A DNA stretch of 64,000 nt from positions 1,302,001 to 1,366,000 of the forward strand of contig NZ_CP023049.2 of the NCBI RefSeq assembly GCF_002285635.2, given 5' to 3'. This document shows, in pieces, positions 16,583 to 43,065 of the stretch. Below the pieces are notes generated by a model. That model did not search any database and was not told where the DNA came from. It saw only the letters and a list, made by a program, of their open reading frames with translations. The position numbers were made by a program, and so were the translations under genes. Positions within the stretch are counted from its first letter, which is position 1; every line of letters begins with the position of its first letter. This DNA comes from Chryseobacterium piperi. GTDB taxonomy: Bacteria; Bacteroidota; Bacteroidia; Flavobacteriales; Weeksellaceae.

Positions 16583-16627
16583 GCAAATTAATCAATTTGC
16601 AACTATTAGGAAAGCGAAAGCTTTCCT
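16583..16627 (-). promoter_or_regulatory. Leader hairpins of the transposase (copy A)
   Basis: Two perfect inverted repeats lie just before the transposase ATG: GCAAATT/AATTTGC (16583-16600) and AGGAAAGC/GCTTTCCT with a GAAA loop (16608-16627). Such structures in IS elements can block translation from outside transcripts; that role is inferred. Copy B has the same repeats at 42975-43019. Confidence 0.5.
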
Positions 16628-16718
16628 TTTTGCATAAAAAAGGCTATCTCTTTTGAGACAGCCTCTTTTTATGGTATTTCATAAAAATAATAGGTTAATT
16701 AATAGTGTAAAATCTTAG

Positions 16719-29091: not shown

Positions 29092-29508
29092 TTAAAAAAT
29101 TTCTCTTCCTGAAAAATGGAATTGTGCTTCAATAAGAGCGTTCTCATCAGAATCAGAACCATGAACAGCGTTCTCTCCAATGCTTCTTGCAAACATTTTT
29201 CTGATAGTCCCTTCTGCAGCTTCTGCAGGGTTAGTAGCACCAATAAGAGTTCTGAAATCTTCAACAGCGTTGTCTTTTTCTAAAACAGCAGCAACGATTG
29301 GTCCTGAACTCATGAATTCTACTAATTCTCCATAGAATGGTCTCTCAGCATGTACTTCGTAGAATTTTTTGGCATCAGCAACAGTAAGTTGAGTTAATTT
29401 CAAAGCTTTGATTTTAAAACCACCTTCTGCAATTTTACCTAAAATAGCACCGATATGTCCGTCTGCTACGGCATCAGGCTTAATCATAGTGAATGTAATG
29501 TTAGACAT
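29092..29508 (-). CDS. ndk: Nucleoside diphosphate kinase
   Basis: The ATG at 29506-29508 starts [20 protein letters not shown], the canonical Ndk N-terminus; the frame extends 24 codons further upstream without meaning. 138 residues. The active-site His is in ENAVHGSDS (about residue 115). It equalises nucleoside tri- and diphosphates using ATP. Promoter TAATTTTG lies at 29539-29532. Confidence 0.97.
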
Positions 29509-29531
29509 AAATGTATAATTTTTTAATGGCG

Positions 29532-29539
29532 CAAAATTA
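29532..29539 (-). promoter_or_regulatory. -7 promoter element (TAATTTTG) of ndk
   Basis: Exact TAnnTTTG match on the minus strand, 24-31 bases before the ATG. Confidence 0.6.
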
Positions 29540-29617
29540 CAAAAAATATTTTTTAGATTCATTTTAATTTTTTTTAACATAAAAATAACTTTTATTAAGA
29601 AATGTCATGCCAATCTT

Positions 29618-29633
29618 TGGCACAGTAATTGTT
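29618..29633 (+). promoter_or_regulatory. Sigma-54-like -24/-12 promoter
   Basis: TGGCACA (29618-29624), four bases, then TTGTT (29629-29633). This matches TGGCACG-N4-TTGCW apart from A at the position after TGGCAC and T for C at -12; the G-to-G distance of 12 is right. The predicted start is near 29644. RpoN use in this organism is assumed, not shown. Confidence 0.45.
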
Positions 29634-29643
29634 TATTCTATTC

Positions 29644-29709
29644 CGATTCTCATGTTTAATTTGAGTTTTCATGGTTATTAGTTTTTACCCAGCTTCGGCT
29701 GGGTTTTTT
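29644..29709 (+). ncRNA. Candidate ~66-nt small RNA with 9-codon ORF
   Basis: Between the sigma-54-like promoter and a strong terminator there is a short plus-strand transcript unit in a gap without genes. It contains a short stem (CTCA/TGAG) and an ORF encoding MFNLSFHGY starting at 29653. It ends with ACCCAGC-TTCG-GCTGGGT and six T. Nothing on the plus strand upstream needs this terminator: ndk is on the minus strand and ends at 29092. RNA or leader-peptide status is inferred. Confidence 0.45.
29687..29709 (+). terminator. UUCG-loop intrinsic terminator
   Basis: ACCCAGC (29687-29693), TTCG loop, GCTGGGT (29698-29704), then a T-run to 29709. A very stable terminator in plus orientation. Confidence 0.9.
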
Positions 29710-29887
29710 ATTATAAATACTTAAAGAATTTATTCCTATTTTGACCATAAATCCCCAAAATCATCACCTAAGACCATAAAAACACAAAAATTAATCATGT
29801 GTTCAATAAAAAGATGCCAAAATATCCCTTTTTTATTTTACAAAAACGAAACATTTTGGCACCCTATATTATTTATTTGTTAATAAT

Positions 29888-41516: not shown

Positions 41517-43057
41517 GAGGCTGTCTCAAAAGGACAGTCTCTTTTTAGTATTTCATTGAAAAAAGATTTCGATATTTTGAATAAAAAAAATATCTTGGAA
41601 AAAAGAAGATATAAGTCAAAAAAGCAGTCTGTTTTAGGCTGCTTTTGACATTTTCTTTAGATTGTGGGCAATTGCGAGTATGCCGATTTCTACCTCGACT
41701 TTATTTTTTCCCCGAAGCATGAATCGTTTAAAATTTTTGTTGTGTTTGAGCTCTGCAAAAACAGGTTCAACATCATGGGATCTTTGTTTTCTGAGTTTTA
41801 TGCCCTTGCTGGTATTAAGAAGTTTGAAAACCTTTTCTCTGATTTTTGCCAATTTAGGATTGTTTTGTGAAGTGGTTATTTGTCCCGATTTCTGATCTTT
41901 TCTGAAGTAATTATATTTAACATAAGCTTTTATTTTCTTAGATTTTAACAAGTTGTAATTTTCTTCTGAGCCATAACCAGCATCAGCAACAAGCTCTTTG
42001 GGAGCTTTATGATAGCTTTCTTCAAAACCCAGTAAATGAGTCGCTAATGTTTTGGTGTCTGTTGGGTTGGGATGAATTGAATAATGTAAAATGAATTGTC
42101 TATGGGTAGAAATTTGTAGATTGTAAGCGGGTTTTAGTTGTCCGTTTCGCATATGATCCTCCTTCATTCGCATAAAAGTAGCGTCTGTATCGGTTTTGGA
42201 ATAGGAATTTCTATCTTCTAATAATTCTTGCTGTTTTTTATATTTCTCTAAATTATCTGCCCAGTTTTTCTTAGCATAATTCAGTTTCTGACGAACTTTT
42301 GAAGCTACTTTTTTATCTTTCAAAACTTCATTGATCTTTTCGATGGTTTGAGTTACTTTTTCAGAATCTACTTCTTTAAAATCAATACTTTCTGTATTTT
42401 CAAGCTCGTCTTTGGCAACTGTTTCTGCATAGTTCCAAAGCTCTTCTAATTGCTCTGCAATCCTTTCTTTGTGTTTTTTGACAGCTCTTCCCCAAACAAA
42501 AGTATAGCGATTGGCATTGGCTTCTATCTTGGTGCCATCTACAAAAGTGGTTTTCAGACTTACCAAACCTTCCTTTTCCAAAAGAAGAACAATTTGTGTG
42601 AAAATAGCTTTAATCTCACCTTTCAATCGTTCACTACGGAACCTGTTTAAGGTGTTATGATCGGGACGGCTCATTGCAGAGAGCCACATAAAATGGATGT
42701 TTTCTTTCAAGGCCTGCTCCATTTTGCGGCTTGAATAGATATTGCTTAAATAGCCATAAATCAAAACTTTCAAAAGCATTTTCGGGTGGTAGCAAGATGT
42801 TCCGCCAGGTTTGTAGGTTTTAATTAAGCTTTTGATATCCAAGCCATCAATAATGTTTGAAACAATTTTCACAGGATGTCGCTCATCAATCAACTCCGAT
42901 AAATTGGGAGGAAAAAGCAGATTTTCTTTGGGGGTGTAATCTTTAAAGACTACTTTTGACGTACTTAACACAATGCAAATTAATCAATTTGCAACTATTA
43001 GGAAAGCGAAAGCTTTCCTTTTTGCATAAAAAAGGCTATCTCTTTTGAGACAGCCTC
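41517..43057. mobile_element. IS1182-family insertion sequence, copy B
   Basis: 1541 bp, same orientation as copy A. The 16-bp terminal repeats are at 41517-41532 and 43042-43057. Two base differences from copy A were found (41779 and 41799). The left flank is the 3' end of the DUF1349 gene; the right flank is a hairpin (43066-43087) of the next gene. I see no convincing target-site duplication. Confidence 0.93.
41634..42971 (-). CDS. IS1182-family DDE transposase (copy B)
   Basis: A 445-residue transposase identical to copy A except for one residue: Ser here and Cys in copy A (the residue before HDVEPVF, from the base change at 41779). The change at 41799 is silent. Complete frame, so possibly active. 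Confidence 0.95.
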   Translation of the reverse strand: MLSTSKVVFKDYTPKENLLFPPNLSELIDERHPVKIVSNIIDGLDIKSLIKTYKPGGTSCYHPKMLLKVLIYGYLSNIYSSRKMEQALKENIHFMWLSAMSRPDHNTLNRFRSERLKGEIKAIFTQIVLLLEKEGLVSLKTTFVDGTKIEANANRYTFVWGRAVKKHKERIAEQLEELWNYAETVAKDELENTESIDFKEVDSEKVTQTIEKINEVLKDKKVASKVRQKLNYAKKNWADNLEKYKKQQELLEDRNSYSKTDTDATFMRMKEDHMRNGQLKPAYNLQISTHRQFILHYSIHPNPTDTKTLATHLLGFEESYHKAPKELVADAGYGSEENYNLLKSKKIKAYVKYNYFRKDQKSGQITTSQNNPKLAKIREKVFKLLNTSKGIKLRKQRSHDVEPVFAELKHNKNFKRFMLRGKNKVEVEIGILAIAHNLKKMSKAA

Positions 43058-43065
43058 TTTTAATT

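Follow-up and report, generated by a model that had tools for sequence, protein, structure and literature searches.

What is encoded in the short gap beside ndk in Chryseobacterium piperi: a stand-alone small RNA, a peptide gene or an attenuating leader? The window in which the question arises (the whole stretch of DNA that was analysed, 64,000 nucleotides) comes from a 4.5-Mb, single-contig source genome (G000, contig C1; the locus copy lies at C1:1331652), and a sequence-only reading of it had proposed a sigma-54-like promoter driving a short RNA with a nine-codon ORF and a UUCG terminator. The relevant features, in window coordinates, are these.

29092–29580, minus strand: ndk (nucleoside diphosphate kinase; Pfam NDK, 7e-51), the divergent neighbour, which serves as a synteny marker.
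29616–29633, plus strand: sigma-54-type promoter TTTGGCACAGTAATTGTT, with GG (−25/−24) at 29619–29620 and TTGT (−12 region) at 29629–29632.
29644–29709, plus strand: predicted small RNA, 65–66 nt, its 5' end placed by sigma-54 spacing and by other copies, its 3' end by the terminator.
29649–29665, plus strand: 5' hairpin CTCA(TGTTTAATT)TGAG, with a 4-bp stem that is kept and a loop of variable length among copies.
29652–29681, plus strand: nine-codon ORF (ATG...TAG) for MFNLSFHGY, judged incidental.
29666–29681, plus strand: unpaired seed TTTTCATGGTTATTAG, whose complement is the partner-RNA island discussed below.
29687–29709, plus strand: intrinsic terminator, comprising ACCCAGC (29687–29693), a TTCG loop, GCTGGGT (29698–29704) and a T-run (29704–29709).

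At the level of letters the sequence-only reading was accurate: TTGGCACAGTAATTGTT, the perfect stem with its T-run and the reading frame were all located where it had placed them. Its −24/−12 motif, TGGCACA-N4-TTGTT, is borne out by comparison, as the spacing between TGGC and TTG is fixed in 92 distinct copies (84 of them equally distant from CTCA), in other genera also, while the spacer varies; the pattern itself defined this class, and the varying spacer is the informative part. The layout of a sigma-54 promoter (conserved GG at −24 and GC at −12, 10 nt apart) is thus present, with T or C as the final −12 base; at the locus this base is T, one base off consensus, as had been remarked. The source genome encodes a protein with an RpoN DNA-binding domain. 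Spacing to the −24 GG puts the predicted +1 at about 29644, in agreement with copies elsewhere that have a TAnnTTTG −7 element or the 3' end of a tRNA at about the same point, and we infer that an RNA of 65–66 nt, close to the 66 nt first suggested, is transcribed from the ndk-side locus.

In the predicted fold of this RNA an unpaired linker separates a 4-bp CUCA/UGAG hairpin from a 7-bp UUCG terminator; the folding z is −3.4, and none of 200 shuffles was equally stable. The presence of a terminator is not significant by itself, because shuffled sequence gives 3.1 ± 1.6 terminator-like sites per 5 kb and the 5 kb around the locus contain four, the locus terminator among them. Among copies, the terminator stem changes on both sides (ACCCAGC/GCTGGGT, ACCCTGC/GCAGGGT, ACCTAGC/GCTAGGT, ACCCCAAC/GTTGGGGT), and 87 distinct paired versions were collected by a detection that itself demanded pairing. 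In the 5' hairpin the loop ranges from 5 to 10 nt and the stem is kept (in copies gathered via that stem), and there is no covariation because the stem is nearly invariant. A covariance model with this weak hairpin alone recovers the known copies in sequence from the source genome and from a second genome, G060, and found no further convincing match in either; the terminator was omitted from the model, as its differing stem lengths caused misalignment.

The sigma-54-type promoter and the covarying terminator support a stand-alone short RNA. An attenuating leader, offered earlier as an alternative, is not supported, since the next gene is convergent; nor is the hairpin a bidirectional terminator serving that convergent MFS gene, because the T-run is on the plus strand only. 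An upstream palindrome, TGTCATGCCAATCTTTGGCACA, was considered as an operator and rejected, its conservation having been looked for among relatives and not found. Further features flank the locus. Upstream of the sigma-54 site, AACATAAAAATAACTTTTATTAAGAAA (29570–29602) is well conserved across the genus, and probably represents either an activator site or the promoter of divergent ndk. Just past the small RNA, on the minus strand (29747–29805), an ACACA...TGTGT hairpin followed by TTTTATGGTCTTAG gave a weak covariance-model match (21 bits, E 0.02) that is probably due to chance.

Is the locus conserved, and is it alone? A 131-bp block taken as query matched every one of the 35 relatives in the genus (E about 1e-31 to 1e-51; 84–99% identity over the aligned part); 23 genomes of other families gave no convincing match. 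The core is present within 3 mismatches in 251 of 296 family genomes (none with a reversed control pattern), whereas 247 genomes of the order outside the family gave just two weak matches, of 2 mismatches each. Among the matches listed for named genomes, the exact core occurs in Chryseobacterium, Epilithonimonas, Kaistella, Bergeyella and Cloacibacterium. The ndk motif adjoins the ndk-side copy in several genera, and in such copies the sequence from GATTCTC as far as the linker is near-invariant within and beyond the genus, GATTCTCATGTTTAATTTGAGTTTTCATGGTTATTAGTTTTTACC being retained with rare exceptions while promoter spacer and terminator stem vary. The ORF as a 30-mer has three exact copies in the source genome (zero would be expected by chance in the window), with differing promoters and terminators:

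C1:1331652, the ndk-side copy.
C1:527857, minus strand, exact 30-mer copy.
C1:3861273, exact 30-mer copy.

The reading of the locus as a small-RNA gene therefore stands, and that of a single gene does not: it belongs to a family of copies, which has partner RNAs as well. This multiplicity, like the non-conservation of the palindrome and the breakage of the ORF in paralogues (below), was beyond what the window alone could have revealed.

Twenty-eight columns, the seed included, are invariant in 40 copies picked for diversity. This invariance is partly an artefact of selection, because most copies were collected by core similarity, and the ndk-linked copies, retrieved with the 131-bp query, provide cleaner evidence. 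A separate indication comes from G060, in which CATG is avoided 12-fold (370 seen, 4459 expected), yet both CATG sites of the RNA are kept (L065), which argues that the exact letters are strongly constrained. GATC (1072, about 5943 expected) and CTAG (538, about 3663 expected) are also avoided throughout this genome (loci L237–L316), and the avoidance of all three suggests restriction pressure.

Might the constraint be on a peptide? The ORF is encoded in 172 of 203 distinct copies compared across loci, which could be taken to favour a leader or peptide micro-gene for MFNLSFHGY. A frame under selection should be conserved with synonymous variation, and synonymous changes are absent from the core of the intact copies. 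The other 31, through a single-base loss giving MFN*, AAG for ATG, absence of the ATG, a shifted frame or changed residues, no longer encode the peptide, and still have hairpin, seed and terminator. It follows that the RNA and not the peptide is under selection; the peptide gene that had been envisaged loses its footing, and we consider a micro-gene extremely improbable. What would be expected of a multicopy sRNA family, namely several short independent copies, an invariant unpaired seed and its own terminator, was found. The family is, as judged from these comparisons, a noncoding one, with the 4-bp CUCA/UGAG hairpin, an unpaired UUUUCAUGGUUAUUAG and a terminator, and the locus looks like a real small-RNA gene, so far unlisted: Rfam 15 gave no family at its gathering threshold (the lowest E-value was for anti-hemB, with 17.4 bits against the 49.5 needed), which rules out an Rfam identity, and no description of the small RNA was found in the (mostly open-access) literature on Chryseobacterium, Riemerella and Elizabethkingia.

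The copies occur in four contexts, with the RNA start at about the same point in all: (A) a sigma-54 −24/−12 promoter, which the ndk-side copy has; (B) TGGCA at −24 combined with a poor −12 element; (C) the housekeeping −7 element of Bacteroidota, TAnnTTTG (33 of the 203 copies); and (D) directly behind a tRNA gene. Copies were also present in 21 IMG/VR contigs, at the 3' ends of tRNAs and of phage genes. Two prophage contigs, L320 and L324, have GATT or GACT starting at the base following tRNA-Glu or tRNA-Pro; L325 has two consecutive tRNA-like genes (Rfam matches) with one copy behind each; and further prophage copies lie at the 3' end of an ORF, a context of mRNA 3' ends. GenBank phages gave no good match to the small RNA, and plasmids one, in C. 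joostei. Between phage tRNA and small RNA there is often (L317, L319, L322, L323, L326, L327, L328, all IMG/VR) a stem around a GTTAAACTACAGGAAATTG-like loop, for which the scanned contigs gave no Rfam match other than tRNAs. Between two tandem small-RNA copies (L157, L202, L213, L236) lies a small ORF on the opposite strand, of about 75–80 aa in three of the four loci (MTF..ALK.KK..L..SS.FTK.LYDY.IIP...), for which a Pfam search gave no match.

The phage and tRNA 3' ends in those 21 contigs, and the existence of tandem copies, would suit a terminator-associated element that is mobile or selfish, is spread by phages and has no regulatory role. Such an element would hardly explain why the ndk copy is syntenic across genera with its own sigma-54-type promoter, why the core withstands genome-wide CATG avoidance or why antisense partner RNAs are maintained, and we regard it as very unlikely. 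A conflict between phage and host RNAs, in which a host sigma-54 stress RNA with prophage-borne copies is opposed by separately regulated host sponge RNAs, several copies being tRNA-attached and so releasable by tRNA 3' processing, is a further idea to which we give a rather low probability.

With what might the seed pair? A 15-nt antisense of the seed occurs in two further RNAs that are predicted to stand alone and have related upstream boxes (GTATTTnTACGG / CGTAGAAATACGG). It is conserved inside otherwise variable sequence, as the islands AAAACTAATAACCAT (partner RNA 1) and ATAACCATGAAAACT (partner RNA 2); one partner RNA is in the source genome. Partner RNA 1, whose island was first located by an exact search, at the same position in several genomes, is found in a subset of genomes about 0.8–2.8 kb away on the ndk side, on ndk's strand, and is absent from this position in the source window. 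Its parts are, in order, the box GTATTT(N)TACGGAT, the promoter-like sequence ATCTTTA, a stretch that varies, the island and a GGCAG/CTGCC-type terminator. When 17 examples were aligned, almost nothing was conserved besides the upstream box, the promoter, AACTAATAACCAT and the terminator, the conservation of the island being partly due to selection, as the examples were chosen allowing no more than 2 mismatches in it; from AAACTAATAACCAT on it is exact in 9 of the 17. Partner RNA 2 is that of the source genome:

C1:2593192–2593432: partner RNA 2, with the box ACGTAGAAATACGGAAT...TTTCTACGCTA, then GTTACTTTG, a hairpin and a terminator.

Here the island is in the hairpin loop and provides 15 exact complementary bases; in two other genomes (G013, G014) this arrangement recurs, with AAAACTAATAACCATaAAAACT and as a shorter form. 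The box, as ACGTAGAAATACGGAAT-N4-ATTTGGTACTTTCTACGCTA followed by GTTACTTTG-like promoters, recurs at L368, L370–L388, G000:C1:2593192 and other loci, where it precedes genes for phage-tail-collar, 'FFDGTGNN' and mannan-binding-like proteins; the genes behind it are possibly an undescribed regulon.

Predicted duplexes between seed and partners have energies of about −30 kcal/mol, compared with −15 to −18 kcal/mol for shuffled partners. No compensatory change of seed and anti-seed is seen, because both are near-invariant, and the strongest indication that the seed works by pairing is that two RNAs, otherwise different, contain short islands of its exact complement. We infer that the partner RNAs titrate the small RNA, as sponges. 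Could the direction be the reverse, with the antisense-bearing RNAs as regulated targets or effectors under the control of the sigma-54 RNA? That partner RNAs have their own promoters and upstream box, and that the box of partner RNA 2 is common to phage-tail-collar and mannan-binding-like protein genes, would accord with this; partner RNA 1, by contrast, has no conserved internal feature besides the anti-seed, and we think this direction of control unlikely.

Start codons are plausible target sites for the seed, because its complement contains AUAACC-AUG-AAAA, and some exported-protein genes of the source genome have start sites that match the complement. In the source genome (0.86 Mb), 19 start regions reach −14 kcal/mol or below, compared with 4.1 with shuffled seeds (none of 40 shuffles attains 19); when the anti-start TTTTCAT is held fixed the expectation rises to 11.0 ± 3.9 and 3 of 40 shuffles attain 19, so that the excess is marginal. 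Gene calls for these statistics were simple longest ORFs. Exported proteins were not significantly enriched among the strong start-site duplexes of the source genome, and in G060 seed complements were not enriched at gene starts. A general blocking of start codons on many mRNAs is therefore unsupported in G060 and sensitive to the control in the source genome. A candidate outer-membrane-protein target has orthologues in relatives.

The weakness of this start-site enrichment could be held to favour a different role for the invariant core, as a protein-binding site, with the RNA titrating or guiding that protein (an RNA chaperone or RNase) and the antisense RNAs merely blocking the RNA. The approximately 28 invariant positions exceed most seeds in length, and FopS RNAs of Bacteroides bind RbpB (PMC11697453). 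Against this, pairing is suggested by the 15-nt antisense islands, conserved in partner RNAs of two kinds, and the one protein partner that was sought, Hfq, has no match in the source genome; a protein site is in our estimation an improbable explanation.

Comparison establishes, at the sequence level, the family with its predicted structure, its promoter types, its prophage copies and the conserved 15-nt complementarity, and we think it fairly probable that the ndk-linked copy is the most widely kept member of a multicopy family of trans-acting, noncoding, base-pairing RNAs with sponge or partner RNAs. Sigma-54 RNA polymerase, with an enhancer-binding activator, would make the 65–66-nt RNA, whose tiny 5' hairpin and terminator would flank an unpaired 16-nt seed, the part that base-pairs; no fewer than two RNAs under separate control, which carry the anti-seed, would titrate it; and the downstream effect would be mRNA repression, perhaps at the start codons of exported-protein genes. 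Stress on protein folding or on the envelope, to which sigma-54 would respond, may be the trigger. GroESL, Lon, DnaK and envelope functions are under sigma-54 promoters in F. psychrophilum (PMC9723704), so stress-responsive repression of exported-protein synthesis would, by analogy, be the most natural role.

In function the family perhaps most nearly resembles FopS of Bacteroides and Qrr of Vibrio. The sigma-54-dependent Qrr sRNAs of Vibrio are base-pairing regulators with several near-identical sibling copies, and the present RNAs, which are multicopy, are predicted to be like them in promoter type and pairing; by description they differ in being Hfq-dependent, about 100 nt long with several stem-loops, and from another phylum. 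Enterobacteria have sponges or anti-sRNAs (for example, from tRNA spacers) in which a separate RNA is perfectly complementary to an sRNA seed, as here; the difference is that the two partner RNAs of the present family are stand-alone and separately promoted, with regulator-type boxes, and that titration is predicted. The Bacteroidaceae sRNAs FopS/GibS of Bacteroides thetaiotaomicron, as presented in the sections of PMC11697453 used here, are also multicopy and 65–70 nt long, with a single-stranded 5' seed portion and a terminator, and include intergenic and 3'-UTR-derived members and one phage occurrence; FopS pairs close to the start codon of SusC-like mRNAs and so represses them. Their promoters are canonical sigma-ABfr ones, in contrast to the sigma-54 type of the ndk copy, and those sections do not mention dedicated anti-seed RNAs or tRNA-attached copies (PMC11697453). 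We do not claim membership of FopS, because the promoters are of another type and the Rfam models gave no match (the Rfam release may omit FopS). Rfp18 of Flavobacterium psychrophilum, a conserved flavobacterial small RNA that is strongly structured and pairs through its third stem-loop, is set apart by description from an RNA with one weak hairpin and a terminator (PMC9723704).

The regulatory RNAs of Flavobacteriales, a large order, are little charted. A core kept nearly letter for letter in many genera, in sigma-54, sigma-A-like and tRNA contexts, carried by prophages and accompanied by complementary RNAs, offers a concrete system in an organism without a recognisable Hfq, in which the seed-complement RNAs make the trigger and targets of the small RNA directly testable; it also allows a test of whether sigma-54 stress control in Bacteroidota acts via a small RNA.

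Finally, we draw attention to a 45-bp element that opens with a terminator-like hairpin (GAGGCTGTCTCAAAAGAGATAGCCTTTTTT...) and is near-identical at no fewer than 20 places in G000:C1, two of them in the window (about 16624–16668, and 43016–43060 on the minus strand).
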